Assembly: GCF_002118315.1 (NCBI RefSeq)
Contig: NZ_MTSZ01000004.1
Span: forward strand, 124,001-188,000
Origin: Kiloniella majae
Lineage (GTDB): Bacteria; Pseudomonadota; Alphaproteobacteria; Kiloniellales; Kiloniellaceae
DNA: 64,000 nt
Direction: 5' to 3'
Below are positions 4,913 to 60,349 of this stretch, piece by piece. Below the pieces are notes generated by a model. The model made no database searches, was not told the DNA's origin, and saw only the letters and a program-made list of their open reading frames with translations. The position numbers and the translations under genes were made by a program. The stretch's first letter is position 1. Every line of letters starts with the position of its first letter.

Positions 4913-4994
4913 GTGTAATCATCTTTGAGATAATATGTTATCTTGGGCTTGGATCACGAGATCGGTGTAATCTGAAGCAAAGGGGTAGCAGGCC

Positions 4995-5771
4995 ATGGAC
5001 CAGAAAAATAAAAGGTCAAAGAAAGATCAAATCCGGGCCTTGCTAAAAAGCATAGAGACCGGCGATCCCGCCCCCATTGCGGTGGTGAATGAAGCAAAAT
5101 ACATTCAGCACAACCCGCAAACTCATGAAGGCAGCGAGGGCCTTGCCGCTCTGTTCAAGCGCCTTTCCAAAACGGGACCGAGGGTGAAGATCGTCCGCGC
5201 CTTCGAAGATGGCGACTTTGTTTTTGCCCATACGGAATACGATTTCTCACGCCGCAATATCGGCTTTGAAGTCTTCCGTTTCGAAGATGGCAGGGCGGTC
5301 GAACATTGGGATAATATCCAGCCCCGCCTGGGTCCCAATCCAGCGGACCACTCCATGATCGATGGCCCCACCGAAGCAACCGATCACGCCCATACAGAAG
5401 AGAACCGAAAGCTGGTACAGGCCTTTGTTGACTCTGTGCTGATTAAGGGCGACCTCGATCGTCTGACAGATTTCCTTAACCCACAGTATTTCACCGATCA
5501 CAATCCCCGCCTAGGCGAAGGGATAGATGCGTTACAACAGGAACTGGCAAGCACCCGCAAAGGACAAAGGCGCATCAACTATCAGCGTACCCACCGCATT
5601 CTGGCCGAGGGCAACTTTGTGCTTTCCATCAGTGAAGGCAGCTTTGAAGGCAAACATACCGCCTTTTATGATCTCTTCCGCGTGTCAGAAGGGAAGTTGG
5701 TAGAACACTGGGACACTACTGAAAAGATTGCCCCAAAAAGTGAATGGAAAAACAATAACGGGAAGTTTTGA
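4995..5771 (+). CDS. Double SnoaL-like (NTF2-fold) protein
   Basis: A 258-residue protein made of two tandem SnoaL-like/NTF2 domains (about residues 10-125 and 137-252). The halves resemble each other: YIQHNPQTHEGSEGLAALF against YFTDHNPRLGEGIDALQQEL, and VFRFEDGRAVEHWDNIQP against LFRVSEGKLVEHWDTTEK. This is an internal duplication of the predicted SnoaL-like polyketide-cyclase family, often annotated as aldol-condensation-type enzymes; activity is unproven. There is no signal peptide. A GGGGTAGCAGG sequence precedes ATG 4995. It is the last gene before the AT-rich island. Confidence 0.85.
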   Translation: MDQKNKRSKKDQIRALLKSIETGDPAPIAVVNEAKYIQHNPQTHEGSEGLAALFKRLSKTGPRVKIVRAFEDGDFVFAHTEYDFSRRNIGFEVFRFEDGRAVEHWDNIQPRLGPNPADHSMIDGPTEATDHAHTEENRKLVQAFVDSVLIKGDLDRLTDFLNPQYFTDHNPRLGEGIDALQQELASTRKGQRRINYQRTHRILAEGNFVLSISEGSFEGKHTAFYDLFRVSEGKLVEHWDTTEKIAPKSEWKNNNGKF

Positions 5772-5832
5772 GTGAGAGGGTATCTGAGACCTTGGGTTTA
5801 GGTGTTGTGAGTTTCTATAAACATTTTATCCA

Positions 5833-6141
5833 TTAATCTGCTAATGGCTGCAAGGTTTGAATTATTTGAGCCAATATCTCTGACTTTTCTCTACTACTAC
5901 CACAAAAATTACGAATTGCAGTTGCTACGTTATTGGGGATCGGAGCTTCCTCTGATTTTCGATAGTTTTCGATATGACGCATGATTTTTATAGCGTTCTT
6001 ACTAACTCGTTTTCCGTTTCCGCTAACCCAGTTAGATATCTGTGATTGGGGAACACCAGTTTCCTTTGAAAGCTCATTTTGACTAAGGCCTGTTTCATCA
6101 AGATATTCGATTAATTTTTTTTGAAATACTGAAATATTCAT
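5833..6141 (-). CDS. XRE-family transcriptional regulator
   Basis: A 102-residue DNA-binding protein with a Cro/C1-type helix-turn-helix near residues 16-40 (GLSQNELSKETGVPQSQISN), followed by a short C-terminal helical tail. It is divergent from the glycosylase gene with about 100 bases between the starts. That gap carries a long perfect inverted repeat, so this protein probably represses itself and the glycosylase gene. Such small XRE proteins commonly control defence or mobile modules; that role here is inference. Composition is AT-rich, like the rest of the island. Confidence 0.87.
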   Translation of the reverse strand: MNISVFQKKLIEYLDETGLSQNELSKETGVPQSQISNWVSGNGKRVSKNAIKIMRHIENYRKSEEAPIPNNVATAIRNFCGSSREKSEILAQIIQTLQPLAD

Positions 6142-6148
6142 TAGAATA

Positions 6149-6226
6149 ATTATCGCTTTTAATCGTTTTATAGGTATAATATAGATTAAAAGCGATAATA
6201 TCTAGTGTGTTATTATCTTAAAAGCA
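6149..6226. promoter_or_regulatory. Operator and promoter between XRE and glycosylase genes
   Basis: Two 16-bp arms, ATTATCGCTTTTAATC (6149-6164) and its exact complement (6184-6199), are separated by 19 bp. A partial third site with TATTATC and TTAAAAGC follows near 6209-6226. A TATAAT box (6175-6180) lies between the arms. Arms centred 35 bp apart around a promoter fit cooperative binding of the adjacent XRE regulator. Confidence 0.75.
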
Positions 6227-6244
6227 AATGACAAGGTGCCCTTG

Positions 6245-7072
6245 ATGCAAAAGGTATTCATAGAATCTGGTTATGGTTTAGTTCAGATGGATTTTCCATC
6301 TGATACAAAAGAAGTCTTACCAAGTGTGAAATGGGGCGATGCTACAGGCTTCCCTACAGTTGCTTATTGGCTTTATAAAGTACTGGAGAAACGTTTAACT
6401 GGAGATGTAATTACATACAAATTAGGTAATTCTCTTATTGAAGAAATTGGAGCCTGTCTTTTAGGTGGGCATGGAATTCCTGCTGCAAATGGTTTGGCTG
6501 CATATGAACATATGCGATCTAAAGGTGCTTTTAATGGAAAAGTATATAGCGAAAATGACCTGTATACATGGTTATCGGAACCGATTAATTTAAATGGCAA
6601 GACTTTTAAATATCGTTTTGCTAAACAAAAAGCCAAATATCTTCATTCCGCTTTAGAAAAGACCTATAAGGAGGAGGCGCCAATAATTTCGGGGAAAATA
6701 CTTCGAGATTGGTTGCTTGATATTAAAGGTGTTGGGCTTAAAACTGCGTCGTGGGTAGCTAGAAATTGGCTTGATGCTGATGATGTGGCGATTTTAGATA
6801 TCCATATATATCGAGCAGGAATTTTGGGCGGCTTTTTTAAGCCAGAAATGACTATAGAAAAAAATTATCAAGAATTAGAAGAGCAATTTATTTCTCTTGC
6901 TCAATCCATGAAGATACGAACATCAGAATTGGATGCTGTGATGTGGTATGAAATGCAAAATTCTTTATCTATTCATCGTTTATTGTCGTTGCAAGAGCCA
7001 AGTAACTCACTTGGAATCCGTCAACCCACCGACAACTGCGGTGCCAACCCCGAGCAAATTACGTTGATTTGA
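6245..7072 (+). CDS. OGG-like HhH-GPD DNA glycosylase/lyase homologue
   Basis: A 275-residue member of the helix-hairpin-helix GPD base-excision superfamily, closest in motif layout to 8-oxoguanine glycosylases (OGG). The hairpin and catalytic lysine sit at residues 161-168 (KGVGLKTA, Lys166), and the catalytic aspartate follows in VAILDIHIYRAG (Asp185), matching the Lys/Asp pair of OGG1. It would flip and excise a modified base and may cut the backbone. ATG 6245 is preferred over GTG 6236 because CAAGG lies eight bases upstream. Its 3' end overlaps the convergent nitroreductase gene by 66 bases. OGG-like enzymes accompany QueC-like proteins in type IV CBASS, which makes the pairing here notable. 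The real substrate is unknown. Confidence 0.82.
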   Translation: MQKVFIESGYGLVQMDFPSDTKEVLPSVKWGDATGFPTVAYWLYKVLEKRLTGDVITYKLGNSLIEEIGACLLGGHGIPAANGLAAYEHMRSKGAFNGKVYSENDLYTWLSEPINLNGKTFKYRFAKQKAKYLHSALEKTYKEEAPIISGKILRDWLLDIKGVGLKTASWVARNWLDADDVAILDIHIYRAGILGGFFKPEMTIEKNYQELEEQFISLAQSMKIRTSELDAVMWYEMQNSLSIHRLLSLQEPSNSLGIRQPTDNCGANPEQITLI

Positions 7073-7687
7073 TAAAGTGTTTGCTTGTTTACGACCCATC
7101 AAGCCTAACATGCAAAATGCGAGGTCAAAATTCTCAGCTATAAGGCTTTGAGTGGAGGCTAGAGCCCCAGACTCTCTGAGGGCCAGAAATTCAGCATTTT
7201 TATATTTACAATTTAATCTATCTAAATCGCAAATATACCAGATTAAATAAGCTGAATTTGGGCAATCAATTATTTTCTTACATTTTAGTTTGAATTGGCT
7301 AGGTATAGTTGTGTCGATGTTGAGTAAATCAAAAGTATGGCAGCGCGAATTATAGACATACCAAGTATCAAGTTCAAATTTGGAAATAATACAATCTATT
7401 GTATGCATTGCACCAGCAGAAGGTGTGTTGCGCTTTTCTATTGTCAGCCCAAGTTCATTTACCATTGATTTTTTAGTGCGGCTAGATTGATAGAATAAAG
7501 GACTTAACTGTTCGAGTTCTATATTAGAAAAAGTTCTTCTCGACTGCCTAGATTCTATAACTTTGGTAAAGGACTTTAAGGTTGTATCGGTAAAATAAGG
7601 TAATTTTACTCTTGAGATAATATTGTATTTTATTGCTTCTAAGGGAGTAACGTTATCTCTTATCTCGACCTCTTTATTTTTAGTCAT
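7007..7687 (-). CDS. Nitroreductase/SagB-like flavoprotein
   Basis: A 226-residue protein that resembles the FMN nitroreductase fold, nearest to the SagB/McbC-type dehydrogenase subgroup. Readable features are ESRQSRRTF (about 45-53, phosphate-binding arginines), TPSAGAMHTID (about 88-98) and the C-terminal LALRESGALASTQSLIAENF. SagB-type enzymes oxidise heterocycles in peptides; here there is no YcaO partner, so the substrate is open. ATG 7687 overlaps the QueC stop in ATGACTAA, giving an 8-base overlap typical of coupled translation; an in-frame ATG at 7705 is the alternative. It is the last gene of the minus-strand operon. Similarity is moderate, so the fold is more certain than the subgroup. 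Confidence 0.68.
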   Translation of the reverse strand: MTKNKEVEIRDNVTPLEAIKYNIISRVKLPYFTDTTLKSFTKVIESRQSRRTFSNIELEQLSPLFYQSSRTKKSMVNELGLTIEKRNTPSAGAMHTIDCIISKFELDTWYVYNSRCHTFDLLNIDTTIPSQFKLKCKKIIDCPNSAYLIWYICDLDRLNCKYKNAEFLALRESGALASTQSLIAENFDLAFCMLGLMGRKQANTLSNQRNLLGVGTAVVGGLTDSK

Positions 7688-8273
7688 TATAAAGACCAAG
7701 CTCATTTAGTGTAGAGTAATGTTTGTTACAGCCTCTACAGTTAGCGCAAGGTATATTAGCTTTATGGCATGAGTGGCTCCATGCCAACAATTCAAAGGGT
7801 ATCTTAGAGTTTTTGATTAGTTCAGTAGCAGTCATTTTAATCGCAGGTGCTTCGATCCTAATCCTTCCCTCTTGGTTCACCAAGAGTTGATTTATATTCT
7901 GTATAAATTCTGGTGTTCCATCAGTATGATATTGATCAGATTTGACTGTTCCAATCATTATTTTTTTACACTTCTTTTCAACGGCTTTCATCGCGCAGAG
8001 TGTGATTAATAATTGATTGCGAAAAGGCCACCAATCACTTTCTGGAGCTAACTCGATAGTAGGTCTGTTGGTTAAATCGCCACTTCCTAACTCAGAGCAA
8101 TCAATATCAATATTGATTAAGTTAATACTCAGACTCTGGCAAATCGCATGAGAAGCTCTCCTTTCAGCCTCAGCAGCACGTTGTCCATAATTTATGTTAA
8201 AAGCTATGTCAGGTTTATACATATAAGCTAAGGCTGTTGAGTCTAAGCCACCAGATAGTAATAGGCTTATCAT
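7680..8273 (-). CDS. QueC-like 7-deazaguanine PP-loop enzyme
   Basis: A 197-residue PP-loop ATPase related to QueC, which adenylates 7-carboxy-7-deazaguanine and converts it to preQ0 with ammonia. Seen motifs are the PP-loop SGGLDST (7-13), NYGQRAAEAERRAS, the substrate loop WPFRNQLLIT, GTPEFIQNINQLL and a Cys4 zinc site (SC, PC, NC, GC in SHSCHKANIPCANCRGC). All catalytic parts seem intact. ATG 8273 overlaps the upstream stop as ATGA, so translation is coupled to the kinase-transferase gene. QueC itself lies with queD/queE or folE, none of which is here. Diverged QueC homologues in type IV CBASS (Cap9) and Qat systems serve immunity, reportedly by attaching a deazaguanine to a protein; that role is a reasonable guess here. 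Confidence 0.85.
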   Translation of the reverse strand: MISLLLSGGLDSTALAYMYKPDIAFNINYGQRAAEAERRASHAICQSLSINLINIDIDCSELGSGDLTNRPTIELAPESDWWPFRNQLLITLCAMKAVEKKCKKIMIGTVKSDQYHTDGTPEFIQNINQLLVNQEGRIRIEAPAIKMTATELIKNSKIPFELLAWSHSCHKANIPCANCRGCNKHYSTLNELGLYND

Positions 8274-9499
8274 GTATCCAGCCACGCAAGATGATAGATA
8301 GACGATGCGAAGTCGTTAAAGATTTTACAGCCTGAGCCTTCATACATTTTTAATTCTTCATCCTTTGGGTTTTCGGCTAGAATTATCACAGGTTTATTGA
8401 TGCTTCGAGCATATCCTATCTCGAATAATGTACCAGGGTCTGTGCCGTTGAATAATGAGTACATCACATCGCAATTTTTTATAGCGTCTATATCTTTTTG
8501 CACTACCTCTTCTGCAGAGCCAATTCCGATTTCATGGTAAGGAGAAAAAACATCTACGCCGAATGATTCTATTATATGTTTGGCTTCGTTAATCATCCAT
8601 AATTCAGGTAAAGTAAAAAAAGGTCCAGCTAAATAAACTTTTTTCTTTTTTGAATTAAGTTTGATTGGATCTAAGTTTTTCTCAAATAAATTCAACCCTT
8701 CTTCATTATTCATTATTCTATGGCTAACATAATATGCTGCAGCAATACTTGACATTCTAGCTGCGTCGGTAAGGCTTAACTTTTTGATTAACCAGTAAAA
8801 AGTAAATGCGGCTACAAATGAGTCGCCTGACCCTATCGGAAATATTGTTTCTGTTTTGTAGGGAGGTACCCAGTTATTCTCGTTTTTTGAGTGAACGAAA
8901 ACCCCCCTTTGTCCACATTTAACAATTATTGCGGATGCTTTTTCTTTTTTAAGCAGCCAATTAGCCATTATCTCAATGGTGTCTACAGAAGATTTTTCAT
9001 TTATATAAAATTGAGATAACTCATTGTTATTGGTAACATATATTAAGGTCTCAGCAGTGCTTCCGGTTTCAGAGAATAATATTGGATTATAAGTATTTTG
9101 CGGGTCATAAACGGCTACTCTACATTTTACTTTCGGGGTGGTTTCAATCATTCCAAAAACAATAGCAGAATCAAATTCATCACTACTTAAATCAAATGTT
9201 GGTAACTTTCCTCGTGTAATATGAGGAGTCACTATAGGCTCTGAAAGAGGGTGGAAGTAATCAAATTTAGTAGTTTTTTTGCAATTACTAACGATAAGTT
9301 CACAATTGTTGGTAAATGCGAAAGTTTCTTCTAAAAGGGCTTGGTCATTTGCGGCAATTCTAGCGTGGAGTTTTATCGTTGTTTTAGGGGTAAGCTGAGA
9401 TAAGCAAAGCGCTGCCCTGCCTGCCGATCCTTGCAGTGTTTTATGCTCAGGCCAAGAGCAATACTCTTTGTAAGTTCCGCCTATGATATGAATATTCAT
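8270..9499 (-). CDS. PfkB-type kinase fused to nucleoside 2-deoxyribosyltransferase
   Basis: A 409-residue two-domain protein. Residues 1-275 look like a PfkB/ribokinase sugar or nucleoside kinase, with IIVKCGQRGVF (191-201) and the anion-hole/catalytic motif GSGDSF (223-228, Asp226). After a basic linker, residues 286-409 form a nucleoside 2-deoxyribosyltransferase-like domain: VYLAGPFF (288-295), DVFSPYHEIG (316-325) and GTDPGTLFEIGYA (352-364, Glu360 at the nucleophile position). Together they could cleave or exchange the base of a nucleoside and phosphorylate the sugar. It starts 9 bases after the small Gly/Ser-rich gene and overlaps the QueC-like gene by ATGA. The fusion within a QueC operon is unusual. 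The exact substrate cannot be read. Confidence 0.84.
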   Translation of the reverse strand: MNIHIIGGTYKEYCSWPEHKTLQGSAGRAALCLSQLTPKTTIKLHARIAANDQALLEETFAFTNNCELIVSNCKKTTKFDYFHPLSEPIVTPHITRGKLPTFDLSSDEFDSAIVFGMIETTPKVKCRVAVYDPQNTYNPILFSETGSTAETLIYVTNNNELSQFYINEKSSVDTIEIMANWLLKKEKASAIIVKCGQRGVFVHSKNENNWVPPYKTETIFPIGSGDSFVAAFTFYWLIKKLSLTDAARMSSIAAAYYVSHRIMNNEEGLNLFEKNLDPIKLNSKKKKVYLAGPFFTLPELWMINEAKHIIESFGVDVFSPYHEIGIGSAEEVVQKDIDAIKNCDVMYSLFNGTDPGTLFEIGYARSINKPVIILAENPKDEELKMYEGSGCKIFNDFASSIYHLAWLDT

Positions 9500-9508
9500 A
9501 ATCTTCCC

Positions 9509-9850
9509 CTACGTTGATTCTACAAATATTTTTACGGCAGCTCCAGAAATTGATCGAACTGTTGCCTTGAAGTTATATCCCTGATCTAGGCATTGTTTGA
9601 GATTATGTGCCTGACCAACTATTCCGCCTACTACATTGCCCTTATTCAAAATACGGACAACTTCGATAGAATTCATAACAGACAAATCAACTTGTAAAGT
9701 ATCGCCCAAGTTTAACTTATTCACTTCTCCAAGAACGGGGCTATTAATGTGAGTTTCAAAAGAATAATTGCCGCAATCTATACGATGCCCGCCACTTCCA
9801 CCTGAGCCAAAATTTCCACTAGATCCGCTGCCTGACAAAACTTCCTCCAT
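9509..9850 (-). CDS. Small Gly/Ser-rich protein with HIRAN-like C-terminal part
   Basis: A 113-residue protein heading the QueC operon. Residues 6-21 are almost only Gly and Ser (SGSGSSGNFGSGGSGG), followed by HRIDCGNYSFETHI. The rest (about 38-110) is beta-rich and weakly resembles HIRAN-type domains, with LGDTLQV, NVVGGIVGQAHNLKQCL, GYNFKATVRSISG and a final KIFVE strand. No signal peptide. ATG 9850 is used; a TTG at 9874 is in frame but neither has a clear ribosome site. Because related QueC-like enzymes conjugate a deazaguanine to a partner protein, this protein is a plausible substrate; that is inference. I do not recognise a named family with confidence. Confidence 0.68.
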   Translation of the reverse strand: MEEVLSGSGSSGNFGSGGSGGHRIDCGNYSFETHINSPVLGEVNKLNLGDTLQVDLSVMNSIEVVRILNKGNVVGGIVGQAHNLKQCLDQGYNFKATVRSISGAAVKIFVEST

Positions 9851-10134
9851 ATTTAATCTACGGTTTCTCGTCAAATTTGATTTGTTGAAACCACCTACAT
9901 TCCAAGTTCAATTTATGTGTGATGCTTTTGGAGGTTATGAGGAAGTTCCTAATGAAAACACTATAGTAAAAGCAATCAAATGCAACCTTTGGTGTAAATA
10001 ATAATAAACTATAAACTGATGACTATGAGGCGATAGGTAGATCAAAAGCTACAGTTTAAAATTCTGAATAAAACTTCTTTTAAGTCGTAATGATTTGCCT
10101 CATACCCTCTTCCATCTGGCACCTTGTTTAAAAA
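9851..10134. other. AT-rich leader upstream of the QueC operon
   Basis: About 280 bases without a convincing gene. It must hold the minus-strand promoter for the small-protein/kinase/QueC operon, but no clean -35/-10 pair could be picked. A short plus-strand frame here (to a stop at 10001) has no start signal and overlaps the small gene. The right edge of the island lies in this stretch. Confidence 0.5.
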
Positions 10135-24254: not shown

Positions 24255-24358
24255 CCGGATCCTATCTAGGATCTGGCAAGCCCAAGTGGGCGCCCGAGTT
24301 AATACGAGGACAAGCATGCGCGGCGTTTGAGCGCAATACGCCCTTTTGAGGGACGGTA
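24255..24358 (+). repeat. Structured repeat copy G
   Basis: A 104-base copy ending 23 bases before the inferred start of the WYL regulator. Hairpin 1 CCGGATCCT...AGGATCTGG, hairpin 2 GCCC-AAGT-GGGC, ATGCGCGGCG module, last hairpin CGCCC...GGACG plus GTA. Confidence 0.85.
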
Positions 24359-24381
24359 ACATTACTTCAAGGGAGGTCAAC

Positions 24382-25077
24382 ATTTCACGCGCAGAACGAC
24401 TTTTGAGTTTGATAGAGGAATTCAGGCGTCATCGTCGTCCTGTTTCGGGTAATGATCTTGCGCAGGCATTGGGTATATCAATCCGGACGCTCTATCGGGA
24501 TATCGCTTCATTACGGGCGCTGGGGGCAGGTATTGAGGGGGAACCCGGTGTTGGGTATGTGTTGCGTCCGGGATTCCTTTTGCCCCCGGTTATGTTCACG
24601 GCAGAAGAAGTGGATGCGCTGGTTCTTGGATCGCTCTGGGTGGCGGATAAGGCAGAGGCACCATTGGCTGAAGCCGCGAAAAAGGCGATGGCAAGGTTAA
24701 CGGCGGTTATGCCAATAGAACTTGTTGATCGTGTTGAAGCGCAATATGCCGTCGTGGGACAGAGTGAACCATCCCATCAAGAGACAGTTGATATGACGGT
24801 GGTGAGACAGGCGATTCAAAACGAACGGAAGCTGCTTGTTCACTATCGCGATGGAGCGGGAAAAAGTTCAGAACGTGTTATATGGCCGTTCTTTTTGATC
24901 TATTTTAATGGTGGACGCCTTATTTCTGCTTGGTGTGAGTTAAGGGATGATATACGGCATTTTCGCACGGATCGTATTGAAACTCTTTCTGAAATACCAA
25001 CACGATATCCCCGTCGTCGACACGACCTCATAAAGCTTTGGCGGGAAGCTGAATCGTGTGAAAACGCCTCAAAATGA
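24382..25077 (+). CDS. YafY-type WYL-domain transcriptional regulator, ATT start
   Basis: A 231-residue regulator of the YafY type: N-terminal HTH_11 winged helix (SRAERLLSLIEEFRRHRRP, then GISIRTLYRDIASL) and a WYL ligand domain (ERKLLVHYRDGAGKSSERV, WPFFLIYFNGGRLISAWCEL). There is no ATG near the expected N-terminus. GGGAGG (24371-24376) lies five bases before an in-frame ATT at 24382, exactly where the family's initiating Met precedes SRAERLL, so ATT is taken as the start. Upstream in-frame codons fall inside repeat G. It directly precedes a SnoaL-type gene that it may control. Confidence 0.88.
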   Translation: MSRAERLLSLIEEFRRHRRPVSGNDLAQALGISIRTLYRDIASLRALGAGIEGEPGVGYVLRPGFLLPPVMFTAEEVDALVLGSLWVADKAEAPLAEAAKKAMARLTAVMPIELVDRVEAQYAVVGQSEPSHQETVDMTVVRQAIQNERKLLVHYRDGAGKSSERVIWPFFLIYFNGGRLISAWCELRDDIRHFRTDRIETLSEIPTRYPRRRHDLIKLWREAESCENASK

Positions 25078-54329: not shown

Positions 54330-55190
54330 TTGAAATTTTCGAATGAGTTAAATGAGATCCAAGACGCCACGGTGGCTGGAATTTCAGTTATGCGCGATAG
54401 CATTAGCCTTGCCCTCGGTGAACATCTGGATGATCAACCAAAGTTCAAGCGAACCGTATGGGGGCTAGTTCTGTATCAGTCCGAACGAAGTCAGGTAGTT
54501 TCTTACTTGGCCAGTTCGAACTTTGTTTGGGATGCAGAGATGATTCTCAGGTCCTTCTACGAAGCCAACGTGAAGATTTGGTACTTGTGCAGCCTTCAAG
54601 GGGCGGACCGGGAAGCTGCGGTCGAGGAATTTTGGGGAGCCTTTCTCGATGTGCATGCACACAAACGAAGGGTAAAAGCGGGGTTGGTAAAATCCGTCTC
54701 CCAAAATTTACGCCGAGAGTTCCATACAAAGATTTTCAGCGCGTTGGAGGATGACAAGATCAACCAGTTTTATGAGGGTAACAAAAAAGATCGTCGTGAC
54801 GTTGAACAACGTTGGTCGTTTTCATCCTTGATAAAGAAGCTGGAAACGACACCCAAGAATATCTTGGATTTTTCGAGCATTCGCGCACTTGAACATTCGT
54901 TTGGATTACAAAGTCATTTACTGCATGCAGATGTTAGCGCTTTGGATCTTATGCATGACCGCAAAATCCGTTCAGCTGAGGAACTAGAAGCGTTGACTGG
55001 TTCCCACGTATGTCGAATTTTTTCTGATCAAATTTCAATCTGGGCGATGACATCGATTGCCGTCTGGTCGGCGACAGGCACCAAGTGCCCGAAGGGGGAT
55101 GAGATAGCGAGTACTGTCGATAAAGTACACAAACTCATACGCCCGTTTTCAGAAAGATTCGAAGCATCTCAATCTGATTCTTACCAGTGA
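54330..55190 (+). CDS. DUF5677-like protein
   Basis: A 286-residue, mostly helical protein that resembles DUF5677 proteins (EMILRSFYEANVKIWYL, LSSH-like GLQSHLLHADVSAL). DUF5677 proteins occur in defence-type islands, but their activity is unknown. A TTG start at 54330 is used; no better codon exists nearby, the next ATG being at 54390. It is convergent with the HAD-like gene of the methyltransferase operon, with only 18 bases between stops, so it is a probable member of the same island. Confidence 0.65.
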   Translation: MKFSNELNEIQDATVAGISVMRDSISLALGEHLDDQPKFKRTVWGLVLYQSERSQVVSYLASSNFVWDAEMILRSFYEANVKIWYLCSLQGADREAAVEEFWGAFLDVHAHKRRVKAGLVKSVSQNLRREFHTKIFSALEDDKINQFYEGNKKDRRDVEQRWSFSSLIKKLETTPKNILDFSSIRALEHSFGLQSHLLHADVSALDLMHDRKIRSAEELEALTGSHVCRIFSDQISIWAMTSIAVWSATGTKCPKGDEIASTVDKVHKLIRPFSERFEASQSDSYQ

Positions 55191-55208: not shown

Positions 55209-55667
55209 CTAAAAATTTCCCACATCGCATTGAAGGCACATGACGCCATTTCGCCGCCACATGTCTACAACTTGTTGTCTGTCGTCCACGACGAACTCGA
55301 TCAATTTCCCCTCTGAGATTAGGCGATCGTGAATATCTTGTTTTACGCGATGGTCAGCGCGGTAATCTCCATCAGCTCGCATAACAAGGCGACCAAATGG
55401 GATTTCATTCCAAATTAGCCAACGTTCTGTAATACTGCGGTATCGCTCGCTTCTCCCAGACGCCAAAATTAATTCATACCGCCCAGCAATCCATAGAGTC
55501 ATATAGAGGCTAACAACTGGTGCATTTGGCGTATCATCGCCCATCAACTCATTGAATTTGCTCCAATTTGGTGGATCAGCTTCTAGATAAGGCCTGCGAT
55601 GGTTGATATCAGCTAGAGTTCCATCGACGTCAAAAACAACGACGTTTTTCTCTTGTTCTTTAGTCAA
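55209..55667 (-). CDS. HAD-family phosphatase, PNKP-like
   Basis: A 152-residue HAD protein resembling the 3'-phosphatase domain of T4 polynucleotide kinase: motif I VVVFDVDGTLADINHRRPYL, motif II LILASGRSERYRSITERWL, and a late IEFVVDDRQQVVDMWRRNGV. It may remove 3'-phosphates or other end phosphates from nucleic acids. The start TTG at 55667 overlaps the receiver stop in TTGACTAA, with AGG upstream. It is the last gene of the four-gene minus-strand operon. Confidence 0.8.
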   Translation of the reverse strand: MTKEQEKNVVVFDVDGTLADINHRRPYLEADPPNWSKFNELMGDDTPNAPVVSLYMTLWIAGRYELILASGRSERYRSITERWLIWNEIPFGRLVMRADGDYRADHRVKQDIHDRLISEGKLIEFVVDDRQQVVDMWRRNGVMCLQCDVGNF

Positions 55668-56598
55668 GCTTACCTGCGGCGATCAGATTCAGCAGCTCCT
55701 TTAAGGCGTCTTCACACGCAATCATTTCCTGCCTAAGCTTACCAAACTCTGCGTCGCCATAACTGATATTCTCGTGACCCTCAAAAACGACCTTTCCGTC
55801 CTTTTCGATTGCACGCGCGTGCCCCAATCTGTTGCGATGGTCTAACAGATCAGAATAGCCCTGAGCAACTTCGCGCTGAGGGCCAACTTCGGGGCATTTT
55901 CGTTTAGATCGAGTCACACTATTCAGGACGTTAAATCGTGATTTGGAGGGATATCCATGGCTCGACAAAATCTTTCGAACGTCTTCTTCGGTCTGCATTT
56001 TGCCGACGTCTTCGGAAAGCGAAGTTTGCATAGACACCAATTTATCAAGAACTTTTTCACGTATTGCGCTCTTACTATCACCTTGAAGCTGACCCCAGCG
56101 GGTGGCAATGGCATCAATTACATGCCGATCGCAATTCGCAACTGATGCCATCGCAAGTCCGCGCATATTGTTAGTGTCCATCACCTTTTTTATCGTCGTT
56201 TCGATAACTCTCATGATGTTGGTTGATATGTCTGTGTCTCGGTTAAAGTAGTACACTCCATCTGATGTTCTACTCTTATAGAGAGCGTCGCGTAGCACGT
56301 TCATCTTGCTAACCGAATAGAATACTACTTCCGTAAGAACTTTGTGGTCGTGTCTAATTTGACGGATCAACTCGTCACCATTCACGTCTTTCCCACCTGT
56401 TTTCTGGAGGTCGAAGTCCATGAGGATGAGATCAATCTTCGGATCTGAAACAAGCTGGGGGAGGTTTTCGCCATTTGCTTGATTATCAACAAACAGTCGA
56501 AAACCAAGGTCATCCATTTTCAACTCAAGTATTTCTTGAACAGGCTCCAGCCAATCAGACTTATCCTCAAACCATAGAATTGAATAATCAAGCTTCAT
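55660..56598 (-). CDS. Receiver-domain protein with uncharacterised C-terminus
   Basis: A 312-residue protein. Residues 1-122 resemble a response-regulator receiver: acidic pair in LWFEDK (Glu11, Asp12), phosphoacceptor in DLILMDFDL (Asp61), and Ser95 in VVFYSVSK. The invariant lysine is not found where GVYYFNRD stands, so phosphorylation signalling may be altered. Residues about 125-312 are helical and of no known family, with no DNA-binding domain visible. Its start overlaps the GHKL gene by ATGA, so it should be made together with that ATPase. Confidence 0.75.
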   Translation of the reverse strand: MKLDYSILWFEDKSDWLEPVQEILELKMDDLGFRLFVDNQANGENLPQLVSDPKIDLILMDFDLQKTGGKDVNGDELIRQIRHDHKVLTEVVFYSVSKMNVLRDALYKSRTSDGVYYFNRDTDISTNIMRVIETTIKKVMDTNNMRGLAMASVANCDRHVIDAIATRWGQLQGDSKSAIREKVLDKLVSMQTSLSEDVGKMQTEEDVRKILSSHGYPSKSRFNVLNSVTRSKRKCPEVGPQREVAQGYSDLLDHRNRLGHARAIEKDGKVVFEGHENISYGDAEFGKLRQEMIACEDALKELLNLIAAGKLD

Positions 56599-59102
56599 TT
56601 CGCAAATTCCATTTTGAAAGTAATTTTTCTGTCATCATCTACTACAGCGGATAAATGCCCGCCCAACTCAGCTACTAGTTCCCTAGCATGATTTAATCCG
56701 AGCCCTGAGCCATTGGTTGTCGTAACACCTTTTTTGAAAATTTCCTTTGGATCATCAAACTTTTGATGCAATCCAATTCCATTGTCCTCAATTCCTATCA
56801 AAATAGTATTTTTCTTAGGGCTAGAAAGTTTGAATTTGATTTTTTTGGCTTCAGCCTTCTTCGAATTATGAACAAGATTATCGATAACGATGAATAGCTC
56901 GATTGGCCTGAAGGTAAGTTCAAACGCGGAGGCGTCATTCTCTACAGTCATGTCAATGCCGTCTCCCGTAAAAACGGAGCAAATATTTTCAATGTATTGT
57001 GGGATAAACAAAGATAGGTCTGCTGTTGTTTCGTCGCCATCCAGCGTAAAGTTTGCCTTAGTTGAAAAATTCACAATCGACTTAATTTTGTTGTTTGAAA
57101 GTTCGACGCGATCGACAAATATTTGCCGATCAGTTTCGAGGAATTTGCCCTTCGAGATCTTAATCCGTGCAAGGTTAATCTGTTGAGTGATGGCGTCTGA
57201 ATACCCACCTATATGATGTAAGTAATTGACAAGGCTCTGAAAATCGTTTGTATCAAGAGCCGTGAAAAAGCTGACTTTCTTCTCCGCATCCGCCGCCTTT
57301 TCTTCGGCAGCTTTGGCTCTTTCTTCAGCATGCTCTCGGCCAGCCCGTTCGTCATTGGCTTGTTGCTCAGCTTGTCTCTTCGCTTTTGCCTCTGCTTCAG
57401 CTTTCTCTTCTGCAACCTTTCGTGCTTCTCGTTCAGCTCTTGCTTCAGCCTTGGTTCTTTCTTGTGCTTCAATCAGTTCGGCGTGGCGCCGTTGAGCCAC
57501 CCCAAGCTGTTCAATGAGGTCAGTGTCCTTGGTTCTTTCAGCAACGTGTTCAAGTGCCTTCATCGCCAGAGAAAAGTCTGAAGATTTCTCATCAAGTATT
57601 TTCAAGAATCGTGGAGAATAGCTTACGATCTCGACATCTGGGCTCTTCGTTAGTCCAGAAACAACTTTTATTATCCTTGCCCGTGCAACGTCGGTTTCCA
57701 TCCCGGCCAAGTCGAGACGACTTGTGTCAAGCTTATCAATCCAATTAACGTTGACGACGTATCTTTCCAATAGACGTATACAGTACTGTATAAAGAACTT
57801 TTCAAGCTCCTCGTACTCAGGTGTCCGGATCAACCCCCCGTCACGGCTTGTAACCTCTCGGAACACTGGGCGTCCGTTGCCAACAACATCAATCCTACCA
57901 ACGACTTCTCTTGTACCTAAATATCGAGAGCGCCCTTGGTTCTTTCTTGTGTCCAGTCCAAACGTATCGACTCTAGGCTCACCTATCGGAAAGACCCTAA
58001 ATCCTTCATTGAACAGAAAGACGTGACCAAATTGCGTACTTTGCTGCCCCATGAATCTAGTGAAAACCTGCCTCGCAGCAGTGTTCAGGTAGTGAACTTC
58101 AACATCCACCGATGTTCCCTTGAGCCCTGGGAAGTCGTTTGGCTGAACAAATTCAACAATTAGTTCGCCTCGGTCATAGAGTCTGCTCCGGACCTTGTTA
58201 CCATCCTCTATTAGGGATACTTCTACGTTAGTTGTATGCTTTGAAATTTTCTTGAAAACAAAATTCTGGACCTTGCCGTTAACCACATTCATGTAGTGGG
58301 TCGGAATATGGTCGATGGCTTCAGTTTCGCTTGAAAAGTGTTCTCCAAGAAAATCTTCTATTATTTTTTGATGCTCTTCAGAGGCAATAACCTTTTTGTC
58401 AGCCTCCAGTTCCTTAGACGAATGCAAGTAAACCTGAAGGTCATTCTTTATACCAAACGGGTTAACCAACTTTGCTAAAGAAGCTTTCAAAGAGAGGATT
58501 TTCGAACGGGGCCAACTTGATCTAAAACCTGAAATTCTTAGTACCGTACCATGGCGAAATTTGGTCGTCAGAATAGGAGGTAATGGAACAGAATCTTCTT
58601 CAGAGCTCTCTACGGGAATACTCTCAAACTCTTTTTCTGAGTTGCCCTCGAAGTTTGCCCAATTCACCTGGATCAGCGAAATCTTACCATTTTGCTGGTC
58701 AACTGCTCTTGTATACAGATCCAACTTGGCTCCAAGTCGGTCACATGAGAACCTTCCTATCCCCTTATTTCCAGCAAACCCGCGCCGATGGCGAGTGATG
58801 CGGTCCCTAAAGTCATCAGTTAGGTCAGATAAGGCGTTGATTTCACCTTCTTCGCGATCCGTCCGCTTGGCTGAAAAGCCCAGAAAAAGCCACTTCTCTT
58901 CAATTTCCTTAGGCGACATTCCTTTCCCATCATCGATGATGAAAATTTCATCTTCTTCGAATAGGATATCAACACGAGAAGCCACTGCATCGAACGAATT
59001 TTTGACCAATTCAAATATGGCTACAAAATCGTCAGTGATAAGTTCACGACCAACTATGTCCTTCAGGCCAGTGCTGATTTTGAAATGGAATGGGGGACTC
59101 AT
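56595..59102 (-). CDS. Dual-GHKL ATPase / histidine-kinase-like protein
   Basis: An 835-residue protein with two GHKL ATP-binding domains. The N-terminal one (about 20-120) is Hsp90/MORC/MutL-like: FELVKNSFDA (N box), DDGKGMS, GNKGIGRFS. A coiled-coil rich in Ala, Glu and Lys spans about 520-610; an H-box-like NYLHHIGGYSDA follows near 626; the C-terminal domain has the kinase-type FIVIDNLVHNSKKA, IEDNGIGL and GSGLGLNHARELV. ATG 59102 overlaps the methyltransferase stop by ATGA. The combination suggests a nucleotide-driven clamp or sensor linked to DNA. Exact function unknown. Confidence 0.82.
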   Translation of the reverse strand: MSPPFHFKISTGLKDIVGRELITDDFVAIFELVKNSFDAVASRVDILFEEDEIFIIDDGKGMSPKEIEEKWLFLGFSAKRTDREEGEINALSDLTDDFRDRITRHRRGFAGNKGIGRFSCDRLGAKLDLYTRAVDQQNGKISLIQVNWANFEGNSEKEFESIPVESSEEDSVPLPPILTTKFRHGTVLRISGFRSSWPRSKILSLKASLAKLVNPFGIKNDLQVYLHSSKELEADKKVIASEEHQKIIEDFLGEHFSSETEAIDHIPTHYMNVVNGKVQNFVFKKISKHTTNVEVSLIEDGNKVRSRLYDRGELIVEFVQPNDFPGLKGTSVDVEVHYLNTAARQVFTRFMGQQSTQFGHVFLFNEGFRVFPIGEPRVDTFGLDTRKNQGRSRYLGTREVVGRIDVVGNGRPVFREVTSRDGGLIRTPEYEELEKFFIQYCIRLLERYVVNVNWIDKLDTSRLDLAGMETDVARARIIKVVSGLTKSPDVEIVSYSPRFLKILDEKSSDFSLAMKALEHVAERTKDTDLIEQLGVAQRRHAELIEAQERTKAEARAEREARKVAEEKAEAEAKAKRQAEQQANDERAGREHAEERAKAAEEKAADAEKKVSFFTALDTNDFQSLVNYLHHIGGYSDAITQQINLARIKISKGKFLETDRQIFVDRVELSNNKIKSIVNFSTKANFTLDGDETTADLSLFIPQYIENICSVFTGDGIDMTVENDASAFELTFRPIELFIVIDNLVHNSKKAEAKKIKFKLSSPKKNTILIGIEDNGIGLHQKFDDPKEIFKKGVTTTNGSGLGLNHARELVAELGGHLSAVVDDDRKITFKMEFAK

Positions 59103-60349
59103 GTAGGTGATACGCTCTCTTGGCCATGGAGTACTGATAAAACTAGTTTTCCCAGAGCTTCGGCCATTAGAGGCGGAACGGCGTTTCCAACCTGCGTATA
59201 TCTGGGGCACTCGTCCTTCCGTCTGGCCCCGCCAGTCGTATATTTCCCATGAAACGTAAACCAGTCTGGGAATGATTGAATTCTGGCGCTTTCTCTGACT
59301 GTCAGTATCCTTGGCTCACTGTAGTGAAGGAGATCATCAGGAAGCGTCGTTATTGTTTTTGACATTTGGTCAGGATGTAGGGGAGTAAAACACTGCTTCT
59401 TCATATTATAGTGGTCCCTAAATTCTTTCGATAGTGTCGAGCCTTTAGGGCATTTTTTTAGTATATCGTTGAAGCGAATAACCGTGTTCGGTCGGTGCCT
59501 GGCGAGCCGCAAGCTATTTGGAGTCGATCCATTTCGTGCACCCCTTCGCATCAATTTTTGGAAAGGCGTAGGCGATGTAGGTGGGGTATATCTGATTTCA
59601 TTGAAGCCAGATGTCTCTTGGCTTTCGGCAACTCCACATACAGCAACTTCGATGTCGGATATTGCTTCTCTGACTGTTATTTCATGCCCGTTTAATCCAC
59701 AGTTTTTTCTGAATGCTGAAGCGAATTCTTCTAATTCATGAAACGGGTCTTTTGAGTCCCAATCCAGCTTAAGATCGCTGCGAGCGGCAAGTAGGATGAA
59801 TCTAGGTCTTGGTTGCGGCACACCAAACAAGGAGGCGTTTACTACTTTACTGAATACCTGATACCCACCCCACTCGAAGCCTTCTAATTGCTCCCGGATT
59901 TTATCAGCGTGCACATCGCCACCAGCATCATCGAAAGATGAAGAAAAACCTCTCACGTTTTCAAACAGTAGGTATTTAGGTCGGACTATGTCAACAAGCT
60001 GAATGTACTCGTCCTTGAGCTTGTTTCTTGGATCCTTGGCGTTTCGTTTCCCTGCAAACGAATAGCCTTGGCATGGGGGTCCACCCGCAATCAGATCAAT
60101 CTGCCCTCGTAGTTTCGGCAGATAATACCCGTAGTCAGATATCAGCGTTGAAGTCGTCGTTGGTTCTTGAGGGAGCCACTCGGGCCAAGAAAACCGAAGT
60201 TTCCTGCGACCGATCAGGTTTGCCTTCAATGTCGCAAACGCATCTTCATTCTTCTCTATTGCAAACACACCGTCCCAGCCTGCTAAGAGCAGGCCAAGTG
60301 AAAGACCGCCGCAGCCGGCAAATAGATCTATGAACTTGGGCTTAGTCAA
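59099..60349 (-). CDS. DNA cytosine-5 methyltransferase
   Basis: A 416-residue C5 DNA methyltransferase. Motif I FIDLFAGCGGLSLGLLLAGW, catalytic motif IV GGPPCQGYSFAGKRN, motif VI FENVRG and motif X QVGNAVPPLMAEAL are all present, with the variable target-recognition region at about 210-330. It should methylate a specific cytosine; the site is unknown. No restriction endonuclease gene is next to it; the next gene encodes a GHKL ATPase. It leads a coupled minus-strand operon of four genes. Confidence 0.95.
   Translation of the reverse strand: MTKPKFIDLFAGCGGLSLGLLLAGWDGVFAIEKNEDAFATLKANLIGRRKLRFSWPEWLPQEPTTTSTLISDYGYYLPKLRGQIDLIAGGPPCQGYSFAGKRNAKDPRNKLKDEYIQLVDIVRPKYLLFENVRGFSSSFDDAGGDVHADKIREQLEGFEWGGYQVFSKVVNASLFGVPQPRPRFILLAARSDLKLDWDSKDPFHELEEFASAFRKNCGLNGHEITVREAISDIEVAVCGVAESQETSGFNEIRYTPPTSPTPFQKLMRRGARNGSTPNSLRLARHRPNTVIRFNDILKKCPKGSTLSKEFRDHYNMKKQCFTPLHPDQMSKTITTLPDDLLHYSEPRILTVRESARIQSFPDWFTFHGKYTTGGARRKDECPRYTQVGNAVPPLMAEALGKLVLSVLHGQESVSPT

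Follow-up and report, generated by a model that had tools for sequence, protein, structure and literature searches.

What function joins a QueC-like enzyme, a kinase-deoxyribosyltransferase fusion, a DNA glycosylase and a flavoenzyme in one small AT-rich island? The question is raised by a 64,000-nucleotide stretch of the Kiloniella majae genome (assembly GCF_002118315.1, contig NZ_MTSZ01000004.1, positions 124,001 to 188,000 of the forward strand; hereafter the window), where these genes stand beside genes for a regulator and for a small Gly/Ser protein (SGP). The best explanation for the set, and one that we hold to be rather probable, is a mobile system of phage defence that works by conjugating nucleobases to protein. 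Its central reaction, in which we place a similar degree of trust, would be the tagging of the SGP N-terminus with a nucleobase by the QueC-like enzyme, a type taken over from tRNA chemistry. Compared with known systems, the set is best read as a third QueC-type defence system, after type IV CBASS (cyclic oligonucleotide-based antiphage signalling system) and Qat.

Gene content and layout

All six genes are present (Pfam/NCBIfam), as follows.

9509..9838, minus strand: SGP, 109 aa; start TTG 9838; no family match
8270..9499, minus strand: PfkB-type kinase fused to a nucleoside 2-deoxyribosyltransferase (NDT) in one protein (PfkB 2.1e-12; Nuc_deoxyrib_tr 4.8e-16)
7680..8273, minus strand: QueC-like PP-loop enzyme, 197 aa (PF06508, 4.3e-25); start ATG 8273
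7007..7687, minus strand: SagB-like FMN dehydrogenase (TIGR03605, 2.8e-12); start ATG 7687, open reading frame reaching 7705
6245..7072, plus strand: OGG-like HhH DNA glycosylase (Ogg-HhH PF22175, 2.4e-15); frame open from GTG 6236
5833..6141, minus strand: XRE-family regulator (HTH_3 PF01381, 2.2e-7)

Domain scans, which covered nine proteins of the window, and GC content bear out an earlier note on this DNA, which had described an AT-rich island with an XRE regulator, an OGG-type glycosylase and a four-gene operon on the minus strand. The operon runs SGP, PfkB-NDT, QueC-like, SagB-like. The note had its genes joined by ATGA or 8-base overlaps, which is correct for the PfkB-NDT/QueC junction (ATGA) and the QueC/SagB junction (8 bases) but not for SGP and PfkB-NDT, which are separated by a 9-bp gap. 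Its "nitroreductase-like" gene does encode a flavoenzyme, now narrowed to the SagB type. OGG is convergent with SagB, their 3' ends overlapping by 66 bp, and xre is divergent from OGG. When searched with PADLOC, the set matches the QueC model only (3.3e-22), plus weak helix-turn-helix (HTH) models.

Conservation and distribution

Loci were gathered with PfkB-NDT as the sole query. Plasmid matches came from 42 records, and in 36 of these they covered at least 80% of the protein; the genome loci are the best 80 of at least 306 relatives and lean towards the type found in the window. Among the 82 loci with enough flanking sequence (window, plasmid, genome and viral loci combined), SGP is found in 81, QueC in 80, OGG in 74, SagB in 67 and all of them in 66; this co-occurrence places the arrangement far from chance. 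Genome loci alone (n = 64) give 64, 62, 60 and 57 for the same genes, with all present in 57. The possibility raised in the earlier note that these genes do not occur together in other genomes is therefore at odds with the data, since they co-occur widely.

Operon genes abut or overlap in the 62 loci with five separate genes (median spacings −4, −14.5 and −35 bp), although spacings were taken from the longest frames, which overstates overlaps, and one extreme value reflects a two-copy locus. OGG lies convergent and downstream in 46 of these 62 loci and is otherwise placed in 16. The non-core neighbours cluster above all into Dam-type methylases, HTH proteins and HD dGTPase-like proteins; each cluster was named, like the PurA-like one described below, from one scanned representative. 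The Dam-type methylase joins the system in 37/101 loci, and HD dGTPase-like neighbours occur in 11.

Hosts belong to the Pseudomonadota, Bacteroidota, Verrucomicrobiota, Myxococcota, Cyanobacteriota, Melainabacteria and Thermodesulfobacteriota and include a haloarchaeon, whose locus has neither OGG nor SagB nearby. Incidence is under 2% in each of three genome samples, two taken from phyla and one from an order (7/395, 7/398 and 4/291, chosen centre genomes included). The system is thus conserved, patchy, mobile and horizontally spread. A phage origin was considered and rejected: only 4 of 50,697 records in a phage collection matched, by the NDT domain alone, and the full protein is present in 8 of the 18 PfkB-NDT loci found in IMG/VR.

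SGP carries an N-terminal tag on a predicted HIRAN-like domain

The most constant partner of PfkB-NDT is SGP. Its start in the window is most likely TTG 9838 (MSGSGSSG...), which is not the first start codon of the frame and has a good Shine-Dalgarno sequence, GGAGG, at 9848-9844. An N-terminal M-[S/G/T]-G was found in 103/108 SGP copies from QueC-bearing loci, compared with 78/2347 unrelated reading frames of similar length under the same rule, which takes any in-frame start codon; the rhizobial loci described below, in which no SGP was found, were left out of the count. Beyond these first residues the Gly/Ser stretch is variable. Two cysteines are invariant in 109/109 SGPs.

The AlphaFold model of SGP (mean pLDDT 87.2, pTM 0.71) has low confidence over the first 20 residues (pLDDT about 60), followed by an ordered domain (88-97). 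Foldseek ranks 1-10 are lp_0118 (3k2y) and HLTF HIRAN domains, some with DNA, at probability 1.00 and TMq 0.54-0.64. HIRAN domains bind DNA 3' ends. SGP is thus predicted to be a tagged flexible tail on a HIRAN-like domain, and on this model is probably a small DNA-binding protein. Its predicted fold resembles that of the HIRAN domains of HLTF and Rad5 (TM about 0.6 to HLTF), but SGP is free-standing and carries a tagged tail and the two invariant cysteines. A Pfam search over 74 SGPs returned no convincing family (11 families with one member each, best E 0.0056). SGP is the likely acceptor of a base tag. In one locus (L141, 6900-9399), PfkB-NDT is flanked by two SGP copies, both without the standard tag.

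The QueC-like enzyme and its partners

The QueC-like enzyme carries the motifs SGGxDS, YGQ, WPFRN and CH(x)5CxxCxGCxK, with H-x-D-G replacing YPDC. At this pocket position the window protein has HTDG and all of the commonest system forms have H-x-D-G, compared with YPDC in 13/13 canonical QueC sequences. Against the preQ0 synthase model TIGR00364 the enzyme scores 76.6 bits (cut-off 150.3), and the QueC sequences of the system fall into a single clade (106 rows, support 100/99; the single CBASS row drew a long-branch warning). The Asp of YPDC, which in Cap9 reads the base edge according to the available text of the source (PMC13279940), is retained in H-x-D-G.

The canonical queuosine pathway is ruled out by pocket motif, TIGR00364 score, clade and neighbours. 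Neither queD, queE nor folE, whose constant adjacency the earlier note had weighed, recurs beside the system, and the K. majae host has canonical queC and queE side by side on a different contig. At one locus (L014, 10465-11040), a VUT family gene, annotated for queuosine salvage, lies downstream of the QueC-like and SagB-like genes and may point to base import.

The other enzymes keep their characteristic residues. The Asp of the PfkB GxGD motif is present in 113/113 sequences, and the Glu and Asp of the NDT DxGTxxE motif in 111/113 and 107/113, residues that we take to be catalytic. The catalytic Lys and Asp of OGG are intact, as the earlier note had it (K166/D185 when counted from ATG 6245, or K169/D188 from GTG 6236), and are kept in 95/95 aligned homologues; the PDB matches of OGG are the N-glycosylase/DNA lyases 3fhg and 3fhf. 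The SagB-like protein scores 46.5 bits against TIGR03605, under the model cut-off of 78.4, and its profile matches in the PDB are the CyaGox and BmdC oxidases.

Relation to type IV CBASS, Qat and PF06508 Cluster 4

Tagged partner proteins have precedents. As described in the available parts of two papers, a QueC relative acts on a tagged N-terminus in CBASS and is thought to do so in Qat (PMC13279940; PMC11996544); type IV CBASS CD-NTases begin MGGS, and QatB begins MGTS and has a disordered tail with a conserved N-terminal motif (PMC13279940). As a positive control, the cyclase of a Pseudanabaena CBASS locus, two genes after its QueC, starts MGGSGGGF.

Type IV CBASS (CD-NTase, QueC-like Cap9 and TGT-like Cap10; NDG modification) and the present system have a small QueC-like enzyme in common. 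The partner protein starts MGGS there and MSGS here, where it is HIRAN-like; the base-exchange-type enzyme is the TGT-like Cap10 there and NDT here; and the base pocket is YxDC there and H-x-D-G here. CBASS is not known to include PfkB-NDT or SagB. According to the earlier note, QueC-like and OGG-like enzymes occur together in type IV CBASS; Pfam recognised neither OGG nor TGT in the one CBASS locus examined. No CD-NTase was found among the nine window proteins scanned, nor is any large cluster of non-core neighbours in 101 loci a CD-NTase, as far as representatives were scanned. TGT was not matched in the window's set, and TGT-like proteins were seen only in four rhizobial loci. Membership in type IV CBASS is ruled out, since the CD-NTase and a TGT-family Cap10 are missing.

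The qatABCD system likewise pairs a QueC relative with a partner that has a disordered tail and an N-terminal motif. QatC, however, is about 400 aa long with extensions, compared with 197 aa for the QueC-like enzyme, and QatB is all-helical, whereas SGP is predicted to be beta-rich and HIRAN-like. Neither a KAP ATPase (QatA) nor a TatD nuclease (QatD) was matched in the window's set, and Qat membership is ruled out by the missing QatA, QatD and QatC extensions. The earlier note's statement that the set stands without a CD-NTase or Qat partners thus agrees with the window proteins.

Part of the system is already in print, and the note's description of it as undescribed was an overstatement. In the available text of a paper published in July 2026, PF06508 Cluster 4 has a PfkB-PF05014 neighbour in about 89% of cases, with a guessed role in purine salvage; the window QueC fits the published signature, CH(x)5CxxCxGCxK plus such a neighbour, and that part of the text does not mention the small tagged protein, OGG or SagB (PMC13329287). 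A search of openly licensed PubMed Central text, which covers few subscription papers, brought up no account of the complete set of five genes, of a tagged HIRAN-like protein, of the defence setting or of the two module swaps. The QueC/PfkB-NDT pairing is thus already known; the other four points appear to be new.

Module swaps

A PurA-like enzyme occupies the place of QueC in three loci (L063, L086 and L092; PF00709, 1.8e-40 for L063). It retains PurA motifs such as GDEGKG. The loop that holds aspartate in PurA is FQGEFR in the L063 enzyme and TTGRSR in the PurA aligned with it; the sequence looks as if the enzyme uses another amine. Two SGPs of these loci begin MSKR, without the tag, and their hosts have no QueC match; the host of the third (L092) has a canonical QueC. 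In 80 kept IMG/VR loci (L145-L224), PurA-like proteins are 35-45% identical to the QueC-replacing enzyme.

In four rhizobial loci (L009, L017, L143 and L226), the PfkB protein has eroded NDT motifs, with DxGTxxE intact in 0/4, the Asp changed in 3/4 and the Glu in 2/4. These loci encode a TGT-like protein (above the Pfam cut-off in 2/4, weaker in 2/4; fused to TIR in 3/4), together with OGG, QueC and a small ThsB-type TIR protein starting MGGG (MMGGG in the L143 frame). SGP was not recognised in the three that were searched (L009, L017 and L143). Where the TGT-like protein is present, then, NDT is eroded and the tag is on another partner. The rhizobial set resembles another tagging system, with the TIR protein standing in for the CBASS cyclase. 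The TGT/OGG/QueC/TIR sets lie at L143 3195-7244 (with a SLATT gene), L017 9252-13313, L009 9467-12359 and L226 6001-9164. Both swaps hint at one chemistry with exchangeable parts, although numbers are small. On a Synechocystis plasmid (L012, 4471-6947), genes for a Multiubiquitin-domain protein and a ThiF-family adenylyltransferase lie directly upstream of the system.

Defence neighbourhood

Around 14 loci, 115 non-core genes match 53 PADLOC families (1e-20 or better), compared with 5 families for 115 control genes drawn from arbitrary regions of those genomes; these figures count families, several of which may match one gene. The comparison covers 14 of 19 hosts, the other five having no existing control stretch, and uses all 115 called neighbour genes and, out of 154 control genes, 115 (a random draw of 120 less the five listed last). 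Among the first 25 families listed are type I restriction, AbiE, AriA/AriB, BrxA, PrrC, dGTPase, PprPIWI and others. MTase_II is matched by five neighbour members, which may be the Dam-type partner itself. With 66/82 loci complete and 53 families against 5, the earlier proposal of a separate conserved module, near defence genes in the loci tested, is supported.

Proposed mechanism and alternative explanations

We propose the following course. In its best-supported step, the QueC-like enzyme would spend ATP on activating a carboxylated base of the guanine type, in the simplest case the host's 7-carboxy-7-deazaguanine (CDG), and would attach this base to the SGP N-terminal amine once Met is removed. 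Tagged SGP, with its HIRAN-like domain and flexible tail, would then go to DNA ends or damaged DNA. More tentatively, the NDT domain would transfer 2-deoxyribosyl to or from the base and the kinase domain would phosphorylate the sugar, turning the tag into a protein-borne deoxynucleotide or into something read as one. Speculatively, OGG, often with the Dam-type methylase, might act on the same base in DNA, and SagB, or in its stead an HD dGTPase-like, Mrr nuclease or AAA/DUF4435 gene, might serve as accessory or effector. The earlier note had suggested a nucleobase-modification or deazaguanine-conjugation module; conjugation is retained here as the best mechanism, and SGP as the likely acceptor, with its predicted HIRAN-like fold, was not foreseen.

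Several observations weigh against this explanation. In the 104 tagged copies (103 QueC-linked and one PurA-linked), Met is followed by Ser in 89, Gly in 12 and Thr in 3, compared with a Gly2 acceptor in CBASS, and the tag is absent from 5 of 108 QueC-linked copies (L013, L021, L058 and two in L141). A like rule also passes 19/109 QueC, 16/112 PfkB, 2/84 SagB and 2/92 OGG frames, the QueC and PfkB frames probably through their LSGG and GG motifs. The similarity of SGP to HIRAN domains has Foldseek E-values of 2.4e-3 to 1.2e-2 (none ≤0.001) at 10-15% identity. In the QueC-like pocket, the base-stacking Tyr is His and the Cys is Gly, and because of these changes the base may be something other than CDG. 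Among 20 host genomes chosen for diversity, QueE, which supplies CDG, is unmatched in two (G060 and G076) and weak in two more (G063 and G069); three of these four (G063, G069 and G076) carry the QueC form, and 5 of 16 QueC-form hosts examined, likewise chosen for diversity, have no second QueC of canonical strength. Only three PurA-type loci are known, two of them in Hymenobacter, and the SGP of the third (L092) starts MGGGG.

Three other explanations were weighed. A purine or nucleoside salvage operon, in which unusual nucleosides are processed by PfkB-NDT and the QueC-like enzyme for metabolic use, would account for the conserved motif residues of the kinase and NDT domains and for the HD dGTPase-like neighbours in 11 loci, and is what the available text on Cluster 4 suggests (PMC13329287). 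We consider it unlikely: the system is carried by under 2% of the genomes drawn, it lies on plasmids and in a variable site amid defence genes, and its most constant partner is SGP, which has a conserved N-terminal tag and belongs to no known enzyme family. Modification of SGP as a peptide precursor, cyclised and oxidised by the QueC-like ATPase and SagB-like dehydrogenase in the manner of ribosomally synthesised and post-translationally modified peptides or thiazole/oxazole-modified microcins, would give a role to the SagB-type enzyme, the Gly/Ser-rich N-terminus and the two invariant Cys. Yet no YcaO-type match occurs among the nine window proteins scanned, SagB was not found in 15/82 loci and scores under the curated cut-off, and past its first residues SGP has a variable Gly/Ser stretch and then a predicted folded domain, which makes this account very unlikely.

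A restriction-modification-like system that places a deazaguanine or other base into host DNA, with OGG removing wrong bases, has in its favour OGG itself, the frequent Dam-type methylase and the existence of deazaguanine DNA modification elsewhere, as given in the available text of PMC13329287. It would leave the N-terminal tag and the HIRAN-like protein unexplained, and no TGT-type protein is recognised in the window's set; we rate it just as low as peptide modification.

A nucleobase-protein conjugation system for phage defence thus remains the preferred reading. A bolder form of it, which we regard as rather doubtful, would make tagged SGP a protein-borne nucleotide (deazapurine from QueC, 2-deoxyribose from NDT and phosphate from PfkB) that the HIRAN-like domain presents at DNA ends, feeding, crosslinking or poisoning phage DNA synthesis or repair. 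The parallel PurA-like form would build a different purine-protein bond, and base-protein conjugation would then be a general immune chemistry with swappable ligases (QueC and PurA) and base-exchange enzymes (NDT and TGT). If conjugation is correct, this is a third QueC-type protein-tagging defence, found in several phyla, with an acceptor that resembles a small DNA-end-binding protein and a deoxyribosyltransferase-kinase as partner. The purpose of a protein-borne base would here become directly testable, and PF06508 Cluster 4 would gain a proposed role.

The island and other features of the window

Two further features mark the site.

5779..10100, no strand: acquired AT-rich island, at a variable site between yaeQ/SnoaL and an XRE-cupin regulator gene (GC and same-genus comparison)
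6149-6164 and 6184-6199, no strand: perfect 16-bp inverted repeat between xre and ogg

Gene GC is 0.36-0.40 across the island (about 5779-10100) and 0.50-0.53 in its flanks. One same-genus genome (G007, locus L243) has 44 bp between the equivalents of 4918 and 10106, where the window has 4919-10105, and two others carry 2.9-3 kb of different DNA at the site; in G004, SnoaL is kept and followed by 2.9 kb of other DNA. Of the 58 genomes searched, the only one in which PfkB-NDT was found is that of the window. The island is thus an acquired, mobile segment. The inverted repeat, which has no second copy in the window at up to three mismatches, is from its sequence probably the XRE operator.

Elsewhere in the window, a second defence-like block on the minus strand (55660-60349) encodes a C5-type DNA methyltransferase (59099-60349; PADLOC MTase_II, 7.6e-79) and two further proteins: one of 871 aa (56595-59210), matched by HATPase_c_3 and HATPase_c, and one of 312 aa (55660-56598), for which PADLOC gave no match. 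It is adjoined by a gene for a DUF5677 protein (54330-55190, plus strand), also without a PADLOC match, and GC skew becomes negative at 55-59 kb. A WYL-domain protein is encoded at 24346-25077 on the plus strand (PADLOC WYL, 1e-56).

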